From Streptomyces triculaminicus (GTDB lineage Bacteria; Actinomycetota; Actinomycetes; Streptomycetales; Streptomycetaceae), in assembly GCF_017349075.1 (NCBI RefSeq), contig NZ_JAFMOF010000002.1, forward strand, positions 868,001 to 932,000: a DNA stretch of 64,000 bases, in the 5' to 3' direction. Positions within the stretch are counted from its first letter, which is position 1. Each line of letters starts with the position of its first letter. Position numbers and translations under genes: made by a program. The notes beneath the pieces are model-generated. The model was not told the DNA's origin and did not search any database. It saw only the letters and a program-made list of their open reading frames with translations. Of this stretch, positions 38,779-51,148 are shown piece by piece.

Positions 38779-39261
38779 ATGAGCCTGCTGCGCAAGATCC
38801 GCGACACCGGGCGGGTGGCGGAGGACGCCCCGCCCCGGCCGACCGGGACTCCGCCGCGCGCCGCGCGGGACCTGGGCGGCTCGGCGCAGGTGCGGTGCGT
38901 GGACGCCGGATCGTGCAACGGCTGCGAGATCGAGATCGCGGCCGCCTTCGGACCCGTGCACGACGCCGAGCGGTACGGAGCACGGCTTGTGGCCTCGCCC
39001 CGGCACGCCGACGTGGCCCTGGTGACCGGGCCGGTGACCCGCAACATGGCCGAACCGCTGCGACGCACCGTCGCCGCCATGCCCAGGCCCCGCCTCGTCG
39101 TGGCCGTCGGCGATTGTGCCATCGACTGCGGGGAGTTCGCAGGCGGATACGGCATCGAGGGCACGGTCGCCGACGTGGTCCCCACCGACCTTCAGGTGCC
39201 CGGCTGCCCGCCGGAACCCGAGGCGATCGTGGCCGCGCTGCGGACGGTGACCGGCAGATGA
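38779..39261 (+). CDS. NuoB/HyfI-like [4Fe-4S] small subunit of an Ehr-type complex
   Basis: The 160-residue protein is homologous to complex I subunit NuoB and group 4 hydrogenase small subunits. Four cysteines expected to bind the proximal cluster are present: Cys46 and Cys49 in DAGSCNGCEIEI, Cys113 in VGDCAIDCG and Cys143 in VPGCPPEP. It would carry electrons at the interface with the large subunit. It opens a tightly packed rightward operon of six genes that lacks ferredoxin-type subunits. Its stop overlaps an ATGA leading into a tiny frame before the next gene. Confidence 0.88.
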   Translation: MSLLRKIRDTGRVAEDAPPRPTGTPPRAARDLGGSAQVRCVDAGSCNGCEIEIAAAFGPVHDAERYGARLVASPRHADVALVTGPVTRNMAEPLRRTVAAMPRPRLVVAVGDCAIDCGEFAGGYGIEGTVADVVPTDLQVPGCPPEPEAIVAALRTVTGR

Positions 39262-39332
39262 GCGGCGAGGCGGGCGGCCGTCCCCCCGATACCCCCGGGC
39301 GGCCGGCGGGCCACGCGGTGAGCGCACGGTGA
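39258..39332 (+). CDS. Possible 24-codon coupling micro-ORF
   Basis: An ATG overlapping the small-subunit stop (ATGA) opens a 24-codon frame whose TGA overlaps the GTG of the next gene (GTGA). The peptide is Gly/Pro/Arg-rich and unlike anything known. It may just couple translation across the 67-bp gap; alternatively, a missing base here hides the true start of the HyfB-like gene. Confidence 0.25.
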   Translation: MSGEAGGRPPDTPGRPAGHAVSAR

Positions 39333-41377
39333 ACGCCATCGGGGCGGCCACGGCCGCCGCTGCCGCCCTCGCCGCCGCCGGAGGAATCCTGGGGGCCGCT
39401 CTCCCCGGCCGCGCCCGCGTCCTCGCCTCCGGCGTCTGCACCGCCGCCCTCGGGGCCGCGGGCCTCGCGGCGGGCGCCGCGGCACTGCGCGGCGGACGCT
39501 GGAGCGCCACCGCGCCCGCCCTCCTCCCGCTCTCCGGGGCGCACCTGGCCGTCGACGCCCTGTCCGGGCTGTTCATGGCCGTGGCGGGCGGCGTCGTCCT
39601 CGCGGTCGCCGTCTACGGCGTCGGATACGCCGCGGGGCACGGTCCGTACGGCACCGGCTCGCGCACGGCCCAGGCCACCCTGCCGGTGTTCGCCCTCACG
39701 CTGCTGCTCGTCCCGGCCGCCGCGTCCGTCTCCACCTTCCTGCTGCTGTGGGAACTGATGGCCCTCACCTCGCTGGTGCTCGTCCTCGCCCGCCACCGCG
39801 GCGGCGGCCCGGGCGAGCGTGCCGCCGTCCGTGAAGCCGGGCTCTGGTACGGGGTGATGACCCACTTCGCCTTCGTCCTGCTGCTCGCCGGCACCGGACT
39901 GTTCGCCGCCGGCGCGGGCGGCGAGACCTTCGCCGCCCTGCGCGCGGGCGCCCACGCCCTGTCGCCCGGCACCCGCGGCCTGGTGTTCGTCCTGACCGCC
40001 CTCGCCTTCGCCACCAAGGCGGGCGCCGTCCCGCTGCACCCCTGGCTGCCCCGGGCGCACCCCGAAGCCCCCAGCGCCGTCTCGGCGTTGATGAGCGCGG
40101 CGATGGTGAACCTCGGCGTCTACGGCGTCGTACGACTGGGCTTCGACCTGCTGGGCGGCGGACCGCGCTGGTGGTGGCTGCTGGTGCTGGGCCTGGGCGC
40201 CCTGTCCGCGGTCCACGGCATCCTGCAGGCCGCCATGGCCTCGGACCTCAAGCGGCTGCTCGCCTACTCCACCTCCGAGAACCTGGGACTGGCCCTCATC
40301 GGCGTGGGCGCGGCCGGGCTGCTGTCCGACGCCGGCAGGCGGGCGCCGGCCGCGCTCGCCCTGGCGGCGGCCCTGCTGCATCTGGTCAACCACGCCGCGT
40401 TCAAGGCCCTGTTGTTCTGCGCGGCGGGCTCGGTGCTGCGCGCCACCGGGCTGCGCGACCTGGACCGGATGGGCGGGCTGCGCGCCCGGATGCCGGCCAC
40501 CTGCGCGTTCTTCGCGCTCGCCGCGCTCGGCGCCGTCGCGCTGCCCCCGGGCAACGGCTTCCTCGGCGAATGGCTCCTCCTGCAGTCCCTCGTCCACGGC
40601 CTCGCCGTCCCCGGGGTGGTCACCGCCCTCGTGCTGCCGCTCGCGGTCGCCGCGATCGCGCTGTCCGCCGGGCTCGCCGCCGCCGTCTTCGTCAAGGCGC
40701 TCGGCGTGGCCTTCTTCGCCCGGCCGCGCAGCGCGCCCGCCGGGGCCGCCGTGGAGAGCCCGCCGAGCATGCTGGCCGGCATGGGCCTGCTCGCGGCCGC
40801 CTGCACCGCCCTCGCGCTCGTGCCCGGCCTGCTGGGCGACGGGCTGTCACGGGCGGTCGCCGCGGCGGGCGCGGGGGACGGGCCGCCGCTGGCCGGAGGG
40901 GCGCTCGCCGTCCGGCTGGACCGGCTCGCCGCCACCATGTCCCCGCTGTGGGTGGCCTGCGCGCTGACGGCCGCCGTGGCCGTCGTGGCCGTGGCGGCCC
41001 GGCTGCTCGCACGCCGCCGGCGCCGGGACAACGCCCGGCTGTGGGACTGCGGCGGAGGCGCCCCGACGGCCCGCATGTCCTACACCGCCACCTCGTTCGC
41101 CGAACCCCTGCAGCGGGTGTTCGACGACGTGCTGGCCCCACAGCAGGACGTCGACGTCACCCCCGTCCGCGCCTCCGCCTATCTCGTGGAGCGGGTGCGC
41201 TTTCGGCGCAGCGTCCCCGACCGCGTCGAACACCGCCTGTACCGGCCGCTGCTGAGCGCCGTCTCCCAGGCCGGCCGGGCCGCCCGCCGCCTGGCCACCG
41301 GCAGCCTCCACCTCTACCTCGGCTACGGCTTCTCCGGCCTCGTCGCCCTCCTGCTCGCCCTGGCGGCCGCGCGGTGA
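39329..41377 (+). CDS. HyfB/NuoL-like proton-conducting membrane subunit
   Basis: The 682-residue protein is a Mrp/NuoL-type antiporter-like subunit with about 14-16 transmembrane helices. Typical features are LLLWELMALTSLVLVL with the conserved membrane Glu, AFATKAGAVPLHPWLPRAHPEAPSAVSALMS with the key Lys and Pro, SDLKRLLAYSTSENLGLA, NHAAFKALLFCAAGSV, and a HyfB-like C-terminal tail (LWDCGGGAPTARMSYTATSF, LHLYLGYGFSGLVALL). It would pump protons or sodium as part of the complex. GTG at 39329 is the likely start, and GTGA couples it to the next gene. Confidence 0.9.
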   Translation: MNAIGAATAAAAALAAAGGILGAALPGRARVLASGVCTAALGAAGLAAGAAALRGGRWSATAPALLPLSGAHLAVDALSGLFMAVAGGVVLAVAVYGVGYAAGHGPYGTGSRTAQATLPVFALTLLLVPAAASVSTFLLLWELMALTSLVLVLARHRGGGPGERAAVREAGLWYGVMTHFAFVLLLAGTGLFAAGAGGETFAALRAGAHALSPGTRGLVFVLTALAFATKAGAVPLHPWLPRAHPEAPSAVSALMSAAMVNLGVYGVVRLGFDLLGGGPRWWWLLVLGLGALSAVHGILQAAMASDLKRLLAYSTSENLGLALIGVGAAGLLSDAGRRAPAALALAAALLHLVNHAAFKALLFCAAGSVLRATGLRDLDRMGGLRARMPATCAFFALAALGAVALPPGNGFLGEWLLLQSLVHGLAVPGVVTALVLPLAVAAIALSAGLAAAVFVKALGVAFFARPRSAPAGAAVESPPSMLAGMGLLAAACTALALVPGLLGDGLSRAVAAAGAGDGPPLAGGALAVRLDRLAATMSPLWVACALTAAVAVVAVAARLLARRRRRDNARLWDCGGGAPTARMSYTATSFAEPLQRVFDDVLAPQQDVDVTPVRASAYLVERVRFRRSVPDRVEHRLYRPLLSAVSQAGRAARRLATGSLHLYLGYGFSGLVALLLALAAAR

Positions 41378-42336
41378 GCGGGCACGGCGCGGCGGGAGCG
41401 GCGGCGGTGGCCGCCCAGGTCGCGGCGGTCTGCGCCGGGGCGCCGCTGCTGACCGGGATGATGCGGCAGGTACGGGCACGGCTCGAGGGCCGGGCCGGGG
41501 CCGGCGTCGGCCAGCCGTGGCGCGACCTGCGCAAGCTGATGCGCAAGGAGGCCGTCACCCCCCAGGGCACCGGCCCGGCGTTCCGGATGGCACCGCTGCT
41601 GCTCGTCGCCACGACCGCCGTGGTCGCCGCCCTCGTGCCGCTGGCCTCCACCGCCACCCCGGCCGGCGGCAGCTCCGACCTGATCCTGGTCGTGGCGCTG
41701 CTGGCGCTGGGCACGGTGGCCCTCGCCCTGGCCGGGCTCGACACCGGCACCGCCTTCGGCGGCATGGGGGCCTCCCGCGAGATGACGGTGGCCGCCCTTG
41801 TGGAGCCGACGATCCTCCTCGCCGTCTTCGCCCTGTCGATGCCCTCCGGCTCCACCAACCTGGCCGCCATCGTCTCCGGCGGCCTCCGCGACCCCGACCG
41901 CCTCGCCTCCCCGGCCGGGCTGCTGGCCACCGCCGCCCTGGCCGTGGCCGTGCTCGCCGAGACCGGGCGGCTGCCGGTGGACAACCCCACCACCCACCTG
42001 GAACTGACCATGGTCCACGAGGCGATGGTGCTGGAGTACGCCGGTCCCGACCTGGCGCTCGTCGAACTCGGCGCCCAGATGCGGCTCGCGGTGCTGCTCG
42101 GCCTGCTGGCCTCGCTCGCCGCCCCCTGGGGCATCGCCACCACCGCCCGTCCGGCGGCCGTCGCGCTCGCCCTGCTGCTGCTCGCGGTCAAGGTCGCCGT
42201 GCTCGGCGCCGTCCTCGCGGCCGCCGAGGTGTTCTGGGCCAAGCTGAGGCTGTTCCGGGTTCCCGAACTGCTCGCCGGCTCCTTCCTGCTGGCCCTGCTC
42301 GCCGTGACCGCCTCCTACTTCCTGACGGGGGAGTGA
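41374..42336 (+). CDS. HyfC/NuoH-like membrane anchor subunit
   Basis: The 320-residue protein is a NuoH/HyfC homologue with about eight helices. It shows RARLEGRAGAGVGQPWRDLRKLMRKEA (loop contacting the peripheral arm), GMGASREMTVAALVEPTILL, and AETGRLPVDNPTTHLELTMVHEAMVLEYAGPDLALVE, the conserved acidic loop lining the coupling site. It would join the peripheral and membrane arms. The GTG start overlaps the previous stop, and the next gene is 7 bp downstream. Confidence 0.9.
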   Translation: MSGHGAAGAAAVAAQVAAVCAGAPLLTGMMRQVRARLEGRAGAGVGQPWRDLRKLMRKEAVTPQGTGPAFRMAPLLLVATTAVVAALVPLASTATPAGGSSDLILVVALLALGTVALALAGLDTGTAFGGMGASREMTVAALVEPTILLAVFALSMPSGSTNLAAIVSGGLRDPDRLASPAGLLATAALAVAVLAETGRLPVDNPTTHLELTMVHEAMVLEYAGPDLALVELGAQMRLAVLLGLLASLAAPWGIATTARPAAVALALLLLAVKVAVLGAVLAAAEVFWAKLRLFRVPELLAGSFLLALLAVTASYFLTGE

Positions 42337-42343
42337 GGCCTTC

Positions 42344-43048
42344 GTGGGCGACACCCTCTACACCCAGCTGCTCGACCTGGCCTGCGGGGCCTTCCTGCTG
42401 GCCGCCGTGGTGGTGCTGTGGCTGCGCCAGCTCGCCTCCATCGTGCGGGTCTTCGCCCTGCAGGGCGTGGCGCTGGCCGCCGTCGCCGCCCTGCTCGGCG
42501 CCCACGAGGGCCGCTGGGAGCTGCTCGCCGTCGCCGTCGGCATCGGCCTGCTCCGGGCGGGGCTCCTGCCCCACCTGGTGCGGCGCGCCCTGTCCGCGCC
42601 CGCCGCGCCGGCCCACCCCGGCCACCACTACGAGGAGGACGTCAGCGAGGCGCGCGAGACCCGGCCGCTGGTCAACGTCGCGGCCTCCCTGCTGAGCGCG
42701 GCCCTGCTGACCCTGCTGTCCTACGCCGTGGCCCGGCCGCTGGTCGAGCTGCACCCCACCCCCGCCACCAGGGCCCTGCCGGTGGGCCTCGCCGTCGTCC
42801 TGACCGGGTTCTTCACCCTGGTCACCCGGCGCCGCGCGCTGGCGCAGGTGGTCGGCTTCCTGTTGATGGACAACGGCATCACCGCCGTCGCCTTCCTGGC
42901 CGCCTCCGGAGTACCGCTCATCGTCGAACTCGGCGTCTCCTTCGACGTCCTGCTCGCCGTGCTGGTGCTGCGGATCCTCACCACCCGGATGCGGGCCGCC
43001 TTCGGCGGAACGGGCATCGACGACCTGCGGGAGCTGCGCGAATGGTGA
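42344..43048 (+). CDS. HyfE-like membrane subunit (NuoK-related)
   Basis: The 234-residue protein has about six helices and the HyfE pattern: VFALQGVALAAVAALLGAH, GIGLLRAGLLPHLVRRAL, FFTLVTRRRALAQVVGFLLMDNGITAVAFLA, VELGVSFDVLLAVLVLRILTTRMR. The membrane Glu in VELG is characteristic of NuoK-like subunits. The GTG at 42344 follows a 7-bp gap, and its stop overlaps the HyfF-like start (ATGGTGA). Confidence 0.88.
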   Translation: MGDTLYTQLLDLACGAFLLAAVVVLWLRQLASIVRVFALQGVALAAVAALLGAHEGRWELLAVAVGIGLLRAGLLPHLVRRALSAPAAPAHPGHHYEEDVSEARETRPLVNVAASLLSAALLTLLSYAVARPLVELHPTPATRALPVGLAVVLTGFFTLVTRRRALAQVVGFLLMDNGITAVAFLAASGVPLIVELGVSFDVLLAVLVLRILTTRMRAAFGGTGIDDLRELREW

Positions 43049-44666
43049 CGCTGTCGCTGCTGACCGGGCCGGTCGCGGTGCCGCTGGCCCTCGCGGGCGC
43101 CCGTGCGCTGGGCGGCCTCGCCGTGCGGGTCCGGCCGCGCCGGCGCGCAGGCGAGCCGGCCGCGCCCCGCCCGGTCCCGGCGCTGACGGGCGCGGGCCCC
43201 GCCCCCGGGCCGCGTCCGCCCGTGGCGCCCCGGACGCCGGTCTCCCGGACGCCGCGCTCCCGGCCGTGCGCGGCGGCGGGGCGGGGCGCCGGGGCGGAGA
43301 GGAGGCGGCGCTCCTCCTCTCCGCCCTCACCGTGCTCGGCTGCGCCGCCGGCCTGGCCGTCGCCGTCACCCGGCACGGCCCCGTCACCGCGTACGGGCGG
43401 CTGCTGCGCGCGGACGCGCTGAGCGTGTGGATGCTGCTGGCCGTCGGCGCGGTCGCCACCCTCGCGCTGGCGGCAGGTCCGCGGGGCCCGGACCACGACG
43501 CGGCCGCCGCCCGCCGCTACGACGTCCTCGTGCACGCCCTCCTCGCGACGCTGAGCCTCGCGGTGCTGGCCGCCAACCTGGGGGTGGTGTGGATCGCCAT
43601 CGAGGCCACCACGATCCTCACCGCCTTCCTGGTCGGCCACCGCCGCACCCGGGCCTGCGTCGAGGCCGCCTGGAAGTACATGGTCATCTGCTCAGCCGGC
43701 ATCGCCCTGGCCCTGCTGGGCACCGTGCTCCTGTACTACGCCGCCCGGCAGGCGGGAATCCCCGAGGCCCTCGCCCTGGACTGGCCCACCCTGGCCGGGC
43801 GGGCCGGCCGGCTGGACCCGGCCGTCACCCGGCTCGGCACGGGCCTGGTCGTCCTCGGCTTCGGAGCCAAGGCCGGACTCGCGCCCCTGCACGCCTGGCT
43901 GCCCGACACCTACGGGCAGGCGCCCGCCCCGGTGTCCGCGCTGATGTCCGGGGTGCTGTCCTCGGTGGCCTTCGCCGGACTGCTGCGCTACAAGGTCATC
44001 GCGGACACCGCCCTCGGCCCCGCCTGGAGCCGCGCCCTGCTGACCGGCACCGCCCTGCTCACCCTCGCGCTCGCGGCGGCGCTGCTGATCGGCCAGCGCG
44101 ACTACCGCCGGATGCTGGCCTATTCGAGCATGGAGCACATGAGCCTGATCGCTCTCGGCGCCGCCGTCGGCACCCCGCTCGCCGCCTCCGCCATGCTGCT
44201 GCACATGCTGGGCCACGGCCTCGCCAAGGCCGTCGCGTTCTGCGCCGCCGGGCACCTGGAGCGGCTGCGGGCGACGACCCGGACCGGGCGGGTACGGGGG
44301 CTGCTGGCCGAGGCGCCGGTGCTGGGCGCGGCCCTCGCCCTGGCCGTGCTCGCGCTGCTGGGGCTGCCGCCGTTCGGGCTCTTCGCGGCCGAACTGGGCC
44401 TGGTCCGCGCGGGCTTCGCGGCGGGCATGGGCTGGGCCGTGGGCGGCGCGCTGGTGCTGCTGCTGACCGCGTTCGCCGCGCTGGGCACGCTCACCGCACG
44501 GATGCTGCTGGGCGCCCCGCCCGCCCCGCGCCCGCCGGCGCGGCTCGGCGTACGGGCCGCCCTGCCCCTGCTCGCCGGGCTGCTGCTGTGCGCGGCGCTG
44601 GGCGTGAGCACCGGGCCGCTGACGGGCCTGCTGGCCTCGGCCGCCGAGATCGCCGGAGGACGCTAG
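43042..44666 (+). CDS. HyfF/NuoN-like proton-conducting subunit, probable frame break near the N-terminus
   Basis: From about 43240 on, the frame encodes an antiporter-like subunit: LLRADALSVWMLLAVGAVAT, GVVWIAIEATTILTAFLVGH, GFGAKAGLAPLHAWLPDTYG with catalytic Lys, QRDYRRMLAYSSMEHMSLIA and LLHMLGHGLAKAVAFCAAGHL. The start that overlaps HyfE (ATG 43042, MVTLSLLTGPVAVPLALAG) is in another frame. Adding one C in the run at about 43227-43231 joins TPVAP-type sequence to PDAGLPDAALPAVRGGG and gives 541 residues. A shorter protein from GTG 43266 would lack the first helix. It belongs to the Ehr-type operon. Confidence 0.82.
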
Positions 44667-44668
44667 CC

Positions 44669-46192
44669 GTGGAACATCACCCCGCCCTGAGGACGGTCAC
44701 CGACATCGACGTCGCCGAACTCCCCGGCAGGGCCGTCGGCCTGCTGCGCGCGGGCCACCGGCTCGCGCTGGTCGCCGCCCACCACGACGCGGACGGCGCC
44801 CCCCTCGGCCGCGCCCTGCGGGTGGTCCACCTCTTCGTCTCCGGCCCGCCCGACACCCGTACGGAGCTGCACGTACGCCTCGACGCGGACGGCCCCGAGC
44901 TGCCGACGCTGGCGCATCTGTCCTTCCCCGGCGGCCGGTTCGAGCGCGAGATGCGCGACCTGTACGGCGTCGTCCCCGTCGGTCATCCGCTGCCGCACCG
45001 CCTGGTGCGGCACTTCCACTGGCCGCGCGGCTGGTACCCGATGAGCCGGAACGCGGGCGACGTGCCGCCCTTCGCCGAGCCCGAGGGCCCGTACCCCTTC
45101 CTGGAGGTCGAGGGCGACGGCGTGTACGAGATCCCCGTCGGCCCGGTGCACGCCGGGCTCATCGAGCCGGGGCACTTCCGCTTCTCCGTCGTCGGCGAGA
45201 CCATCATCAAGCTCAAGGCCCGGCTGTGGTTCACGCACAAGGGCGTCGAGAAGCTCTTCGAGGGCCGCACGGCGGAGCGCGGCCTGCCGCTGGCCGAGCG
45301 GATCAGCGGGGACACCGCCGTCGGTCACGCCCTCGCCTACTGCCTGGCCGTCGAGGAGGCCACCGGCGTCCAGGTGCCCGAGGAGGCCCGCCGTGCCCGG
45401 GCGCTGCTCCTGGAGCTGGAGCGGCTGCACAACCACGTGGCCGACCTCGGCGCGCTGTGCACGGACGTCGGCCACGGCATCCTGGGCGCGCACGCCCAGC
45501 GGATCCGTGAGGGGCTGCTGCGGCTGAACCGGGAGGTCACCGGGCACCGGCTGCTGCGGGGCGGCGTCGTGCCGGGCGGAGCGCAGCTGCGCGCCGTGCC
45601 CGGCCGGGCACGGATGCGGGCCCTCGGCGACGACATCCGCTCCGTGGTGGGGCTCGCCCTCGGCCACACCACCGTCCGCGACCGCTTCACCGGCACGGCC
45701 GGGCTGCCGGCCGCCGCCGCGCGGGACCTGGGCTGCCTGGGGTACGTGGCGCGGGCCAGCGGCCTGGCCCTGGACGCCCGGCTGGCGCACCCGCTGTACG
45801 ACTACGGGCCCGCCCTCGAGGTGCCGGTGCACACCGGCGGCGACGTGCTGGCCCGGTTCCTGGTGCGGGCGGAGGAGGCGGACACCTCGCTCGCCCTCGT
45901 CGAGCACCTCGCGGAGGGCCTGGACGCGGGGGCGTGGGCGGGCCGGCCGCAGGCCCCCGGCTCCCGGCGGGGCGCGGTCCGCGCGGGCGTGGGCATCGTG
46001 GAGGGCTGGCGCGGCACGATCACCACGCGCGTCGAGATCGCCGGGGGCGGGGAGCTGGCCCGGGTGAAGGTGGCCGATCCGTCGTTCTTCAACTGGCCGG
46101 CGCTGCCGGTGGCGCTGGCGGACACGATCGTCCCGGACTTCCCGCTGGCCAACAAGAGCTTCAATCTCTCCTACGCCGGCAACGACCTCTGA
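44669..46192 (+). CDS. HyfG-like large subunit (fused NuoC-NuoD type) lacking Ni-Fe cysteines
   Basis: The 507-residue protein fuses a NuoC-like domain (HVRLDADGPELPTLAHLSFP, FEREMRDLYGVVPVGHPLPH) to a NuoD/hydrogenase-large-subunit domain (FRFSVVGETIIKLKARLWF, THKGVEKLFEGRTAERGLP, NHVADLGALCTDVGHGI). The positions of the four Ni-Fe ligand cysteines hold Ser213 and Thr216 (RISGDT) and Ser472 and Asn475 (DPSFFN), so it cannot bind a Ni-Fe centre. The C-terminus IVPDFPLANKSFNLSYAGND is well conserved in such Ehr-type subunits. GTG at 44669 follows GGAGG. No hydrogenase maturation genes are present. Confidence 0.9.
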   Translation: MEHHPALRTVTDIDVAELPGRAVGLLRAGHRLALVAAHHDADGAPLGRALRVVHLFVSGPPDTRTELHVRLDADGPELPTLAHLSFPGGRFEREMRDLYGVVPVGHPLPHRLVRHFHWPRGWYPMSRNAGDVPPFAEPEGPYPFLEVEGDGVYEIPVGPVHAGLIEPGHFRFSVVGETIIKLKARLWFTHKGVEKLFEGRTAERGLPLAERISGDTAVGHALAYCLAVEEATGVQVPEEARRARALLLELERLHNHVADLGALCTDVGHGILGAHAQRIREGLLRLNREVTGHRLLRGGVVPGGAQLRAVPGRARMRALGDDIRSVVGLALGHTTVRDRFTGTAGLPAAAARDLGCLGYVARASGLALDARLAHPLYDYGPALEVPVHTGGDVLARFLVRAEEADTSLALVEHLAEGLDAGAWAGRPQAPGSRRGAVRAGVGIVEGWRGTITTRVEIAGGGELARVKVADPSFFNWPALPVALADTIVPDFPLANKSFNLSYAGNDL

Positions 46193-46210: not shown

Positions 46211-46336
46211 CTACTTCGCGTGCGCGCCGATGTAGAAGAGCAGCCAGATGAAGCCGGCCAGGACGTGGCCGAAGACCACGTAGATGAGCACCCGCCAGCC
46301 GACGGCCTTCTCGGCGTACTTCTCGTTGTCGGTCAT
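46211..46336 (-). CDS. DUF6126 single-pass membrane peptide (41 aa)
   Basis: This short gene encodes a charged N-terminus (MTDNEKYAEKAVGWR) and one hydrophobic helix (VLIYVVFGHVLAGFIWLLFY) ending GAHAK, matching DUF6126. The ATG overlaps the ArsR stop (ATGA), so it is translationally coupled to the regulator. It ends 18 bp from the convergent HyfG-like gene. The role of the family is unknown, and the operon context suggests a small membrane effector or sensor controlled by ArsR. Confidence 0.85.
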   Translation of the reverse strand: MTDNEKYAEKAVGWRVLIYVVFGHVLAGFIWLLFYIGAHAK

Positions 46337-46680
46337 CGGTTCTCGGCTCCGCTCCGGTCGCCCCGCAGCTCCGTCAGGAGCTCCTCCTGGCCGGTCAGTA
46401 CGTCGGTCAGCAGGCGCCGGGCGGCCCCGAGCAGCTCCGTCACGTCGCCGCCGGCCAGGGCGTAGACGACGGTGGTGCCCTCGCGGGTGGCGGTGACGAT
46501 GCCGGAGCGGCGCAGGACGGCGAGCTGCTGCGAGAGGCTGGACGGCTCGATGCCGATCGCGGTGAGGAGGTCGCGCACCGGCATCGGCCCGTCCTGGAGC
46601 AGCTCCAGGACCCGGATGCGCACCGGGTGCCCGAGCATCCGGAAGAACTCGGCCTTCGCCTGGTAGAGCGGCACCCGCAC
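46333..46680 (-). CDS. ArsR/SmtB-family winged-helix repressor
   Basis: The ~115-residue regulator has KAEFFRMLGHPVRIRVLELL, the recognition region MPVRDLLTAIGIEPSSLSQQ with LAVLRRSGIVTATREGTTVV, and an Ala/Leu-rich C-terminus. The metal-binding cysteines of classical ArsR (CVC) are absent, so it likely senses something other than a thiophilic metal. GTG at 46680 has AGGAG at good spacing; a TTG at 46689 overlapping the upstream stop (TTGA) is the alternative. It is the second gene of a leftward three-gene operon. Confidence 0.86.
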   Translation of the reverse strand: MRVPLYQAKAEFFRMLGHPVRIRVLELLQDGPMPVRDLLTAIGIEPSSLSQQLAVLRRSGIVTATREGTTVVYALAGGDVTELLGAARRLLTDVLTGQEELLTELRGDRSGAENR

Positions 46681-47133: not shown

Positions 47134-49137
47134 TGACTCCGCCGTGCCCGGCGAGCGGACCCTTGGCCTCCAGCCCGCCGCGGGCCCCCGGGCACCCCGC
47201 CGGCCCAGGCCCCCGCCGGCGGCAGAACGGGCTCCGGAGGCGGACCCGGCGGCCCCGGACCCGGCGGGCCCGGAGAGCCGGGGTCGGGCGGGACGGGCAG
47301 GAACGGGCCGGGCTCCGGCGGCCGGGGCGGCTCGGGCGGCCCGGACCTGGCCGAGCCGACCGGCAGCGGCGGCCCCACCGGCTACGACTACGCGGGCTTC
47401 AGCCGCCTGGCCGGGGAACTGACCGAGCCGCCCCCCGGCGTCTACAAGGTCGCCTACCGGCGACTGCTGAGCCGCGGCCCCGGCGGCGGGGCAGGGGTGA
47501 TGCTCCTGGTCGCGGCCGCCCCCCTGGTCTCCGTGGCGCTCCTGGTCTGGCTGGTCTCGCCCGACCACTGGCTCTACCGCCCCTATGTGAGCGACTGGGA
47601 GCGCGGCGCCGACTCCGTGATGCTGGTCTCCATCGCCCTGATCGAGCTGTTCCGCGTCGTCAACGTCGTCTCCAACGCGCACGCCACCTGGGTGGCCAGG
47701 GATCCGGTGCCGGTACGCGCCCAGCCCGGCACCCGGGTGGCGTTCCTGACCAGCTTCGTCCCCGGCAAGGAGCCGCTGTCCATGGTGCGGGCCACGCTCG
47801 AGGGCGCGGTGCGCATCGAGCACCGCGGCCACCTGGACGTCTGGCTGCTGGACGAGGGCGACGACCCCGAGGTCAGGCGGCTGTGCGAGGGCCTGGGCGT
47901 ACGCCACTTCTCCCGCAAGGACGTGGCGCGCTGGAACCAGCCCTCCGGCTGCTTCCGGGCCCGCACCAAACACGGCAACTACAACGCCTGGCTGGACGCC
48001 CACGGCGACGCCTACGACTTCATGGCCTGCGTCGACACCGACCATGTGCCGCTGTCCAACTTCCTCGAGCGCATGCTGGGCTACTTCCGCGACCCGGACG
48101 TGGCCTTCGTCGTCGGCCCCCAGGTCTACGGCAACTACACCACGGCCGTCACCAAGGCCGCCGAGAGCCAGCAGTTCCTCTTCCACGCCCTCATCCAGCG
48201 CGCCGGGAACGCCTACGGCTCACCCATGTTCGTCGGCACCAGCAACTGCGTCCGCATCAGCGTGCTGCGCCAGATCGGCGGCCTGTTCGACTCGATCACC
48301 GAGGACATGGCCACCGGCCTGGAGATCCACCGGCGGCGCAACCCCGCCACCGGCCGGCGCTGGAAGTCGGTCTACACCCCGGACGTGCTCGCGGTGGGGG
48401 AGGGGCCGTCGTCGTGGACGGACTTCTTCTCGCAGCAGCTGCGCTGGTCGCGCGGTACGTACGAGACGCTGCTGCGCCAGTTCTGGCGGGCGGTGTGGAC
48501 GCTGCCGCCCGGACGGCTGCTCAACTACGCCTTCATGGTCGCCTATTACCCGATGGCCGCGCTCAACTGGATGCTGGGGTCCCTGACCTGCGCGCTGTTC
48601 CTGGGCCTGGGAGCCTCCGGCATCGCCGTGGAGTCGTCGCTGTGGCTGATGCTCTACTGCGACGCGGCCGCGCTGCAGGTGGGGCTGTACGTATGGAACC
48701 GGCGGCACAACGTCAGCCCCCACGAGCCGGCCGGCTCCTCGGGAGCCGCGGGCATGGTGATGTCCGCGCTCTCCGCCCCGCTGTACGCGCGCTCGCTCGG
48801 CGAGGCGCTGCTGCGGCGGCGCTCACGGTTCGTCGTCACCCCCAAGGGTGACTCGGCCAGCCCCGACCAGGTGGCGACCTTCCGCACCCACCTGGTGTGG
48901 GCGGCGGTGTTCGCGCTCTCGCTCGCCGCGTCCTGGGCGTTCGGCCACGCCCACACGGCGATGCGGATCTGGGCCGCCCTGGCCCTGGTCACCGCCCTCG
49001 GACCGGTGGCGGTGTGGCAGGGCGGCCTGTGGCGCGACCGCCGGCCCGCGGCCGCCGCCCCGGGGCCGCCGGTCCTCGCCGCCGAGCCGGAGGCGGCCGG
49101 CCCCTCGCGGACCGTGGGCCAGCGGCGTCCGATGTGA
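47134..49137 (+). CDS. cslA: CslA cellulose-synthase-like glycosyltransferase, N-terminus unresolved
   Basis: This GT2 membrane protein matches streptomycete CslA, which makes a beta-glucan at hyphal tips. Catalytic motifs are VWLLDEGDDPEV, FMACVDTDHVP (DxD), DSITEDMATG (TED) and FSQQLRWSRGTYE (QxxRW). Helices flank the domain (MLLVAAAPLVSVALLVWLV, and four or more after 48520). GTG at 47497 is the first start in this frame, but conserved CslA sequence lies upstream (GYDYAGFSRLAGELTEPPPG at about 47377). The frame is open from 47134 without a start codon, so a base is probably missing between about 47130 and 47370; GTG starts at 47057 and 47124 in other frames are candidates. It is followed by glxA. 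Confidence 0.88.
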
Positions 49138-49191
49138 GCGGCGCCCCGCCCGGCCGGGGGCGAACGTCAGTACTCGTGTGATCGAGGGGAT

Positions 49192-51148
49192 GTGAGTGCG
49201 GTGAGGTATCTGCCGAACCCGAGCCCGAAGGCGCGCAAGGCGGCCCTGAGCACCGGCTGCGTCCTGGCACTGCTCGCGGCCAACGGGCCGGCCGCCACCG
49301 GCTTCGCGGAACGCGCCTGGCACGAGTACGCCGTCAACCAGCCCGCGTACAAGGCCGGCTACGGCCACTGGGACGTCGTCGACGTCCCCGCGAGGTTCCG
49401 CGTCAACGCCATCCACGCCGCCCTGCTGCGCACCGGCAAGGTGCTGCTGATCGCGGGATCGGGCAACGACGAGAAGAACTTCAGGGCCGGCACCTTCCGC
49501 AGCGTGCTGTGGGATCCGGTGCGCAACACCTTCAAGACCGTCCCGACGCCCAAGGACATGTTCTGCGCCGGGCACGCCCAGCTCCCCGACGGCCGGCTGC
49601 TGGTGGCGGGCGGCACCGCCCGCTACGAGAAGCTGACCGGCGACGTCGACCGGGCCGGCGGCGCGATGCTGGTGAAGAACGAGAACCCCGACGCCCCCCG
49701 GGCCTTCCCCGCCGGCACCGTCTTCACCGGCTCCACCGGCAAGCGCTACCGCTCCCAGGTGCCGGTCCTCGTGCCCCGCGCCACGAAGGAGGTCAGCGAG
49801 CACGGCAAGGGCAGGAAAAAGAAGAAGAAGGTCCGGGTCACCGCCTCCCAGGCCCGCGTCTACGTCGAGGCCGTCACCGCCGGCGAGAGCGGCATCACCC
49901 ACACCGCCGACCAGTACCGCATCCAGGGGCTCAGGGGGAAGGACGGCCACGACCTGTACGGCCTCGCGGCCAAGCTGGGCCTGGACAAGAAGGACTTCCA
50001 GGGGCTGAAGGACGCCTACGAGTTCGACCCGATCGCCGAGCGCTACGTCCCCGTCGACCCCATGTCCGAGGCCCGCTGGTACCCCACCCTGGTCACCCTC
50101 GAGGACGGCCGCGTCCTGGCCGTCTCCGGCCTCGACGACATGGGCGAGATCATCCCCGGCAAGAACGAGATCTACGACCCCCGCACCCACCGCTGGTCCG
50201 CCGGGCCCAACCGCTACTTCCCCACCTACCCCGCCCTCTTCCTCACCGGCGGCGGCCGCCTCTTCTACTCCGGCTCCAACGCCGGCTACGGCCCCGCCGA
50301 CAAGGGCCGCGCCCCGGGACTGTGGAACGTGGAGACCAACTCCTTCGTCCCCGTCCCCGGCCTGCCCCGGCAGGACATGACCGAGACCTCCGCCTCGGTG
50401 CTGCTGCCCCCGGCCCAGGACCGCAAGGTGATGCTCATGGGCGGCGGCGGGGTGGGGAGTCCCACGAGTCCACCCCCGCACCGCCATCGCCGACCTCGGC
50501 GTGCCCTCCCCGCGCTTCGCCCCCGGCCCCGACCTGCCCCAGGGCACCCGCTATCTCAACGCCGTGCTGACCCCCGACGACCGGGTCTTCACCACCGGCG
50601 GCTCGCGCGACTACCGCGGCAAGCGCGGCTCCGACATCCTGCGCGCCCAGTTCTACGACCCCGCGCGCCGCGCCTTCCGCACCGCCGCGGCCCCCACCGT
50701 CGGCCGCGACTACCACACCGAGGCCCTGCTGCTGCCCGACGGGCGGATCGCGGTGTTCGGCTCCAACCCGCTGTTCGCCGACAAGGACGACACCCGCATG
50801 GGCGTCTTCGAGCAGCGCATCGAGGTCTACACCCCGCCCTACCTCTACCGCGACCGCCGGCCCGCGCTGCCCTCCGCCCCGCGCGAGGCCGAGCGGGGCG
50901 GGGTCGTACGCCTGCCCGGGACCGACCCCCGGCAGAAGGTCACCGCCCGGCTGATGCGCCCGAGCGCGGTCACCCACGCCACGGACGTCGAACAGCGCTC
51001 CATCGCCCTGACCGTCGGCGTCCGCGACGGCGCGCTCACCGTCACGGTCCCGGAGGACCCCTCGCTGGTGCCCGCCGGCTGGTACATGCTCTTCCTCACG
51101 GACCGGGCGGGAACGCCGTCGCGGGCCGCGTGGGTGCACGTGCGGTGA
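49192..51148 (+). pseudogene. glxA: GlxA copper radical oxidase, two single-base frame breaks
   Basis: The gene encodes the galactose-oxidase-like GlxA, which acts with CslA in glycan deposition at hyphal tips. It has an N-terminal signal-anchor (TGCVLALLAANGPAATGFA) and a kelch propeller. Expected Cys-Tyr cofactor residues are Cys in DMFCAGHA (codon 49564) and Tyr in ARWYPTL (codon 50080). Copper ligands are Tyr-His in GRDYHTEALLL (codons 50711 and 50714) and His in AVTHATDVEQRS (codon 50975). The frame breaks at about 50456 (GTGGGGAGTCC lacks one G) and 50474 (ACCCCCGCACC lacks one C). Restoring both gives VGESHESTPRTAIADLGVP and 652 residues, close to known GlxA. GTG 49201 is an alternative start. 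Confidence 0.92.

Follow-up and report, generated by a model that had tools for sequence, protein, structure and literature searches.

An energy-converting hydrogenase-related complex of Streptomyces triculaminicus with a conserved pocket at the vacated Ni-Fe site

What does a membrane complex built like a [NiFe] hydrogenase do when none of its Ni-Fe ligands is left? The question is raised by six genes at 38779-46192 of the window, the 64,000-nucleotide stretch of Streptomyces triculaminicus DNA analysed here (contig NZ_JAFMOF010000002.1, positions 868,001 to 932,000). The genes lie head to tail on the plus strand in the order small subunit-HyfB-HyfC-HyfE-HyfF-HyfG. Judged by subunit make-up and lost ligands, the complex is a member of the established energy-converting hydrogenase-related (Ehr) class, not a new kind, and is not a hydrogenase; it was likened to published Ehr complexes by description rather than by sequence. 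The initial annotation had already proposed an Ehr-type operon, and profile and sequence matches agreed with it: HycE, HycD and MbhJ were the best solved relatives, the Ni-Fe ligands were gone, and no conserved Fe-S input gene lay nearby. Overall its observation was confirmed in part and its interpretation supported in part, since two of the four substitutions it named were wrong and a link to a mycobacterial locus had been missed.

The first gene (38779-39261) encodes a HycG/MbhJ/NuoB-like small subunit of 160 residues with one predicted [4Fe-4S] site (C46-x2-C49, C113 and C143). It is followed by a HyfB-like antiporter-type subunit of 682 residues with conserved charged residues (39329-41377), a HyfC/HycD/NuoH-like coupling subunit of 320 residues whose GTG start overlaps the HyfB stop (41374-42336), a HyfE-like membrane subunit of 234 residues (42344-43048), a HyfF-like antiporter-type subunit (43045-44666) with a frame break at about 43.2 kb and a downstream open frame of 466 residues (43266-44666), and a HyfG/HycE-like large subunit of 507 residues without Ni-Fe ligands (44669-46192), recognised by profile, sequence and fold matches. 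The subunits, HyfB and HyfE among them, were named with Pfam and NCBIfam profiles, and except for broad Pfam matches the scores were below the NCBIfam naming cut-offs; the large subunit matched the fused 30/49-kDa, [NiFe]-hydrogenase-like profile. Among solved structures, the large subunit was closest to E. coli HycE, formate hydrogenlyase (FHL) subunit 5 (7z0s_E, E 8e-60), the small subunit to archaeal MbhJ (8.5e-32) and FHL subunit 7 (1.3e-30), and HyfC to HycD, FHL subunit 4 (1.4e-40). The single-chain model of the large subunit had a mean predicted local distance difference test score (pLDDT) of 80.5 and a predicted template modelling score of 0.87, with pLDDT below 50 at 138-143, 156-178 and 478-507. 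It matched 7z0s_E with Z 34.9 and a root-mean-square deviation of 3.1 over 452 residues, and Foldseek and VIA-align identified the fold common to HycE and complex I, nothing finer.

In alignment to HycE, the first Ni-Fe cysteine pair (RxCGxC) is replaced by RISGDT, with Ser213 and Thr216 in place of the ligands (codons 211-220, RISGDTAVGH, 45299-45328, plus strand). These two substitutions had been named correctly, and no ligand is left; Ser472 and Asn475, previously assigned to the second pair, belong to another conserved motif, DPSFFNW (codons 470-476, 46076-46096, plus strand). The HMMER alignment to 7z0s_E placed RAATYANWP opposite DPSFFNWP and the LDPCYS tail opposite FNLSYA, and ended at residue 503. 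Because the tails of four-cysteine relatives (NKSFELCYAC-DR) align gap-free over NKSFNLSYAGNDL (codons 495-507, 46151-46189, plus strand), it is Ser501 and Gly504, the seventh- and fourth-last residues of the subunit, that occupy the places of the true second pair. The two CxxC pairs of group 4 [NiFe] hydrogenases were therefore absent from it. The subunit ends at Leu507 without an FHL-type C-terminal extension; all 7 FHL large subunits ran 33-44 residues past this column, while other relatives with a complete end stopped there. Frame errors hiding cysteines were also considered and rejected: the only frame break of the operon sits in the HyfF linker, outside HyfG, and its correction restores no cysteine, HyfG is one open frame, and the substitutions are common to relatives. 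Ligands appear to have been lost, not gained, since cysteine-bearing relatives lie outside the group, and the branching of the tree is not the basis for this. The polar stretch that replaces the Ni-Fe site, hereafter the pocket, consists of Ser213-Gly-Asp-Thr216, His220 and Ser501-Tyr-Ala-Gly504-Asn-Asp-Leu; in this fold family Glu166 lies close to it. In the alignment the counterpart of Glu166 in MbhL is Glu21, which has a role in proton transfer.

Few parts of the large subunit are as well conserved as the emptied site. A pattern scan of a species-genome collection was used to find relatives, of which the best 80 of 140 were kept; these loci and the window make up 81 places. Complete sets of six subunits were found in 69 of them, in identical order, and the remaining 12 were 11 places cut by a contig end and one Kitasatospora locus (L050), in which HyfE was not found and the HyfF match, between HyfC and HyfG, was weak. 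The same gene order and an invariant pocket were seen in relatives from Streptomyces, Protofrankia, Nonomuraea, Amycolatopsis and Pseudonocardia. Among the 78 large subunits that reach 430 residues or more, Ser213, Gly214, Asp215, His220, Ser501, Tyr502, Gly504, Asn505, Asp506 and Leu507 were invariant, and Thr216 was kept in 77. In 51 aligned sequences, 62 of the 85 positions of three site-bordering segments (149-179, 208-223 and 470-507) were invariant versus 93 of 422 elsewhere, a comparison in which the segments were picked by us and the sequences share ancestry, and which is not a test of function. The best-conserved 21-residue stretch of the subunit, 154-174, lies inside these segments.

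The residues expected of a cluster and of a pump were conserved as well. Cys46, Cys49, Cys113 and Cys143 of the small subunit, named in the initial annotation, were indeed invariant wherever covered (55/55, 55/55, 62/62 and 62/62) in 62 aligned small subunits; in 7 of these the first two positions are uncovered. In HyfB, E142, K230, K308, E317, H351, H355, K359, E414 and K456 were each conserved at 1.00 in 63 aligned sequences, and the charged residues of the antiporter-like subunits and the acidic residues of HyfC were conserved in relatives. HyfC E196, E210, E216, E221, E285 and D203, in what is presumably the NuoH E-channel region, were identical in the aligned sequences of the window, mycobacterial-type loci, two neighbouring lineages (f25 and f27) and FHL.

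A tree of 55 large subunits puts the window into a 22-row clade made up of Streptomyces, mycobacterial and other sequences (100/100); its neighbours are f27 (99/95) and, with less certainty, f25 (92/66). These three stood apart from a four-cysteine group, from FHL and from three more divergent groups labelled TDS, TSA and EGV; the order of the four-cysteine, Ehr and divergent groups is partly resolved, and long branches meet in it (FHL with NuoD). Lineage f25 (L104, L105 and L107) has an Ehr large subunit and a small subunit that keeps all four cluster cysteines and carries an N-terminal two-cluster ferredoxin-type domain in 3/3 loci (confirmed by Pfam in L104); electrons therefore probably enter via the small subunit, at least in f25. 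In f27 (L103, L106 and L169-L172), all six small subunits have Thr, Cys, Asp and Asp at the four cluster positions, leaving one cysteine. The four complete f27 large subunits keep the pocket with the tail SYSGNDL, and a fifth is cut before the tail; Thr216 is changed to Ser in all four complete ones and His220 to Tyr in one (L170). Inside the pocket segments f27 is 74-78% identical to the window, outside them 30-35%. At the sampled positions, f27 shows no change in the five complete HyfB sequences, a sixth being truncated, nor in any of the five HyfF sequences found; in HyfC, 10 of 11 sampled positions are unchanged in all five found. The f27 complex thus appears to have been stripped of its redox site.

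Cluster ligands were also missing in the divergent groups, namely two of four in TDS and all four in EGV small subunits (2/2 aligned in each), and some sampled HyfB or HyfF residues were changed in TDS, EGV and TSA. The four-cysteine group comprises nine loci (L110, L112, L113, L115 and L120-L124) with the same six subunits and CxxC pairs, except that in L120 the second cysteine of the first pair is replaced by Asp, which leaves three; a ferredoxin-type gene accompanied none of the nine. Since seven of these nine genomes had neither HypD nor HypF above cut-off, their complexes are unlikely to be [NiFe] hydrogenases, and whatever the cysteines hold in those seven is probably not Ni-Fe.

The original Ehr papers are reportedly those of Marreiros and colleagues. 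In the parts of the published accounts available, Ehr complexes are of unknown function in Sulfobacillus (PMC4378227) and Nitrospira (PMC10284858 and PMC12342949) and suspected redox-driven charge translocators in Margulisbacteria and others (PMC6349859), which agrees, as far as these parts go, with the earlier statement that the class is known and its function is not settled. Among the papers listed in literature searches limited to open-licence papers, none dealt with a Streptomyces Ehr. By description, published Ehr complexes likewise have a large subunit of group-4-like type that lacks Ni-Fe ligands, together with membrane subunits resembling those of complex I and antiporters, whereas the actinobacterial clade of the window lacks a ferredoxin-type domain or gene. 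E. coli formate hydrogenlyase and hydrogenase-4 (HycE, Hyf) are closest among solved systems, in sequence and fold for the large subunit and in sequence for HyfC, but FHL keeps the CxxC pairs, the C-terminal extension and ferredoxin-type subunits, none of which the window has. Respiratory complex I (NuoBCD, NuoH and NuoL/M/N) shares a homologous core; the window complex differs from it in having no NADH module and a hydrogenase-type CxxC small subunit with MbhJ as best match. The sulfane sulfur reductase MBS (6u8y) has a homologous large subunit, matched more weakly than HycE, with RICVPE (Cys and Glu) opposite RISGDT at the first pair and a tail outside the alignment.

Another close relative is mycobacterial. 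Locus L100 encodes a regulator that by our count shares about 92% of 112 residues with Rv0081, followed by these six genes, also in this order; the large subunits of L100 and L101 (same genus, mycobacterial-type) lack Ni-Fe ligands, with RISGDT and the tail SYAGNDL. Because L100 pairs a near-Rv0081 regulator with these six genes, the window operon is placed by its sequences in one clade with the mycobacterial locus beside Rv0081, a link made through L100 and L101 and not through the M. tuberculosis sequence. Judged from L100 and L101, Rv0082-Rv0087 ('hyc') has the A-B-C-E-F-G order, the lost ligands and the large-subunit clade of the window. These genes are annotated as a possible formate hydrogenlyase/hydrogenase; the M. 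tuberculosis locus is described as a putative [NiFe]-hydrogenase complex in the part of PMC6901956 available, and as a predicted formate hydrogenlyase in the title of He et al. 2011. The two differ in that Rv0081-Rv0087-type loci have the regulator directly upstream, while the window lacks it and carries, downstream, an ArsR gene of a different type on the other strand.

A search for co-conserved neighbours, suggested with the initial annotation, found only one that recurs: in 47 of the 69 places that could be tested, a gene of the ArsR family immediately precedes the operon in the same orientation. A Streptomyces example of this regulator matched Rv0081 (6jmi) with E 3.3e-33, versus 1e-12 for the next match. 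An ArsR neighbour was present in 4/4 loci of the window clade, 2/3 of f25 and 8/9 of the four-cysteine group, and in none of 2 f27, 7 FHL, 4 TDS, 4 TSA and 2 EGV loci. Upstream of the window operon, as in its nearest relatives, an Rv0081-type gene is missing. The operon of the window is met instead by two convergent genes on the minus strand, a DUF6126 membrane peptide of 41 residues (46211-46336), probably not part of the complex, and an ArsR-family regulator related to Rv0081 (46333-46680). Membership of these two in the system was considered and not adopted: the window ArsR had a mean identity of 57% to 33 Ehr-preceding regulators versus 70% to 36 other nearby ArsR genes (itself included), and is therefore probably not the cognate regulator. 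Past it, at 47500-51148, Pfam recognised a cellulose-synthase-like glycosyltransferase, presumably CslA, and then a GlxA-type protein, with no sign of membership in the complex. By eye, a SulP-type anion transporter recurs near Ehr operons (L014, L019, L042, L044 and other Streptomyces loci; a cluster in 14 loci), often with STAS- or anti-sigma-like proteins.

The absence of a ferredoxin subunit held: a motif scan found no ferredoxin-type gene within 4 kb of the window operon and one among the 81 places, some of which are shortened by contig ends, and this one, a 99-residue open reading frame (ORF), seems to be a chance match. The same kind of scan found Fer4-motif ORFs near 7/7 FHL loci. The six-gene operon contains no NADH dehydrogenase module. 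It was also said to lack hyp maturation genes, which is true of the six genes; HypD and HypF are encoded elsewhere in the genome, on contig C8, beside a different [NiFe] hydrogenase.

The window-type Ehr was found in 18 of 295 Streptomyces genomes (one match partial), and in 10 of 396 genomes of the phylum at E <1e-120. Candidate partners were compared between these 18 and 20 Ehr-negative Streptomyces, the first 20 of 277. HypD was matched in 13/18 (in G471, a genome 78% complete, by a fragment only) versus 10/20, which shows dependence neither way. It had no match in five Ehr-positive Streptomyces (one of them 88% complete and with the partial Ehr match) and was not found in G241, an Ehr-bearing genome outside Streptomyces that is 97% complete; Ehr therefore seems independent of HypD, given the five of 18. 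A formate dehydrogenase (FdhF/YdeP, TIGR01701) was likewise set aside as a partner, occurring in 17/18 Ehr-positive and 20/20 Ehr-negative genomes without discrimination, and the sole Ehr-positive genome lacking it has a completeness of 78%. The broader molybdopterin family PF00384 says little because it was present in 18/19 genomes and one match in the genome of the window adjoins nuoD; of the other matches there, one is an assimilatory-nitrate-reductase-like gene next to NirB and one an FdhF-like gene distant from the operon. A stand-alone NuoD paralogue (L138, C1:1648210-1649352) was also noted; no further nuo gene was seen in the 16 kb read, and by eye it adjoins an S-adenosylmethionine-dependent methyltransferase-like gene, which we take to be of the MidA/NDUFAF7 kind.

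The reading frame of HyfF shifts within a Pro/Ala-rich linker near the N-terminus (43100-43300). The linker is open in the close relative L005, from S. griseocarneus, and its length varies widely among relatives. In the same genome, matches to the [NiFe] hydrogenase large subunit (L136, C8:40135-41698) fall in three frames, and a stretch of the FdhF-like gene (L137, C6:4889-7087) seems by eye to be frame-shifted. These apparent breaks suggest that the assembly may contain indel errors, and the HyfF break is perhaps such an error.

Taken together, we lean, at somewhat less than even confidence, towards an ion-translocating Ehr complex that is redox-coupled through its one remaining [4Fe-4S] cluster and whose head works on something other than H2. 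The cluster would be reduced by a mobile electron carrier of the cytoplasm docked on the small subunit, and a small polar molecule occupying the former Ni-Fe cavity would receive the electrons. The resulting change of protonation would be relayed through HyfC to the antiporter-like channels of HyfB and HyfF, so that H+ or Na+ would be moved; no H2 would be made and no Ni-Fe maturation needed. Composition, lost ligands, cluster site, pump residues and pocket sequence were read from the genes, and from these we infer the steps; donor, acceptor and direction are not established. Several points weigh against this proposal. The pocket is defined by alignment to hydrogenases and no geometry is claimed for it, because pLDDT is below 50 at 156-178 and 478-507. 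Across the 81 places no donor, acceptor, Fe-S input or output redox gene was linked to the operon. The columns of Thermus Nqo4 His38 and Tyr87, which are quinone contacts in complex I, hold Ile165 and Gly214 in the window, so that these contacts are absent by alignment. Finally, f27 keeps pocket and pump without a complete cluster, which means that the conserved role of the pocket need not be redox. The last point, together with the ligand losses in TDS and EGV and the lack of a conserved redox neighbour, argues for a rival that we hold to be a real though lesser possibility, a non-redox or redox-sensed translocator. The head would then regulate an Mrp-like channel or antiporter and be gated by a ligand or by pH, the pocket would bind a non-redox ligand or form a gate, and the Streptomyces cluster would be structural or a redox sensor. 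Against it stand the invariant cluster cysteines of the Streptomyces clade and the two-cluster electron input domain of the sister lineage f25, and the altered HyfB or HyfF residues of TDS, EGV and TSA suggest that cluster loss there may accompany changed or weakened pumping. Electron coupling is preferred to gating because f25 supports electron input, and is held only tentatively because f27 counts against redox being essential. The initial annotation had offered both a pump with an unknown redox partner and a redox-silent channel; the channel finds support in f27, but the Streptomyces complex is probably not redox-silent because the cluster cysteines are invariant in its clade.

The remaining explanations are less probable. 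A complex I-type quinone oxidoreductase, in which ferredoxin or another donor would feed the cluster and menaquinone would be bound with its head in the former Ni-Fe cavity, is a specific form of the redox-coupled proposal that was counted apart; kinship with complex I subunits and the shared acidic residues of HyfC speak for it, but with Ile165 and Gly214 at the two Nqo4 positions we consider it unlikely. Less likely still is a hidden metalloenzyme that retains redox chemistry, with another metal bound by Asp215, Thr216, His220, Ser501, Asp506 and the C-terminal carboxylate. The invariance of the pocket would suit it, and the seven four-cysteine genomes lacking HypD and HypF above cut-off suggest that the cavity can hold something other than Ni-Fe, yet no metal motif was recognised and no metal-insertion neighbour was conserved. 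That the window carries a decaying hydrogenase remnant is very improbable: the HyfF frame break, the patchy presence in Streptomyces and the Kitasatospora locus without HyfE would fit decay, but gene order and pocket are invariant across relatives of five genera, and apparent frame breaks elsewhere in the assembly point to indel errors.

The class is known and its function is not, and the complex of the window, ordinary as a member, is of interest as a test case. The analysis contributes the corrected residues at the Ni-Fe positions, the finding that the emptied site ranks with the best-conserved parts of the protein, and the link between the Streptomyces and mycobacterial Ehr. It also brings out natural variants with more redox centres (a ferredoxin domain), equally many, or fewer (no complete cluster site) around a nearly unchanged pocket and pump. 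It is conceivable, though we would not count it as probable, that Ehr complexes are complex-I-like translocators that shed their redox centres stepwise, with f27 driven or gated by a ligand in the vacated pocket instead of by electrons and the Streptomyces complex an intermediate with one cluster. The order of losses, guessed from which groups hold which centres, may have been the Ni-Fe site, then the ferredoxin domain and then, in one lineage, the last [4Fe-4S] cluster, with pump and pocket kept throughout. The variants allow it to be asked directly whether ion movement needs electron transfer in this branch of the complex I superfamily.

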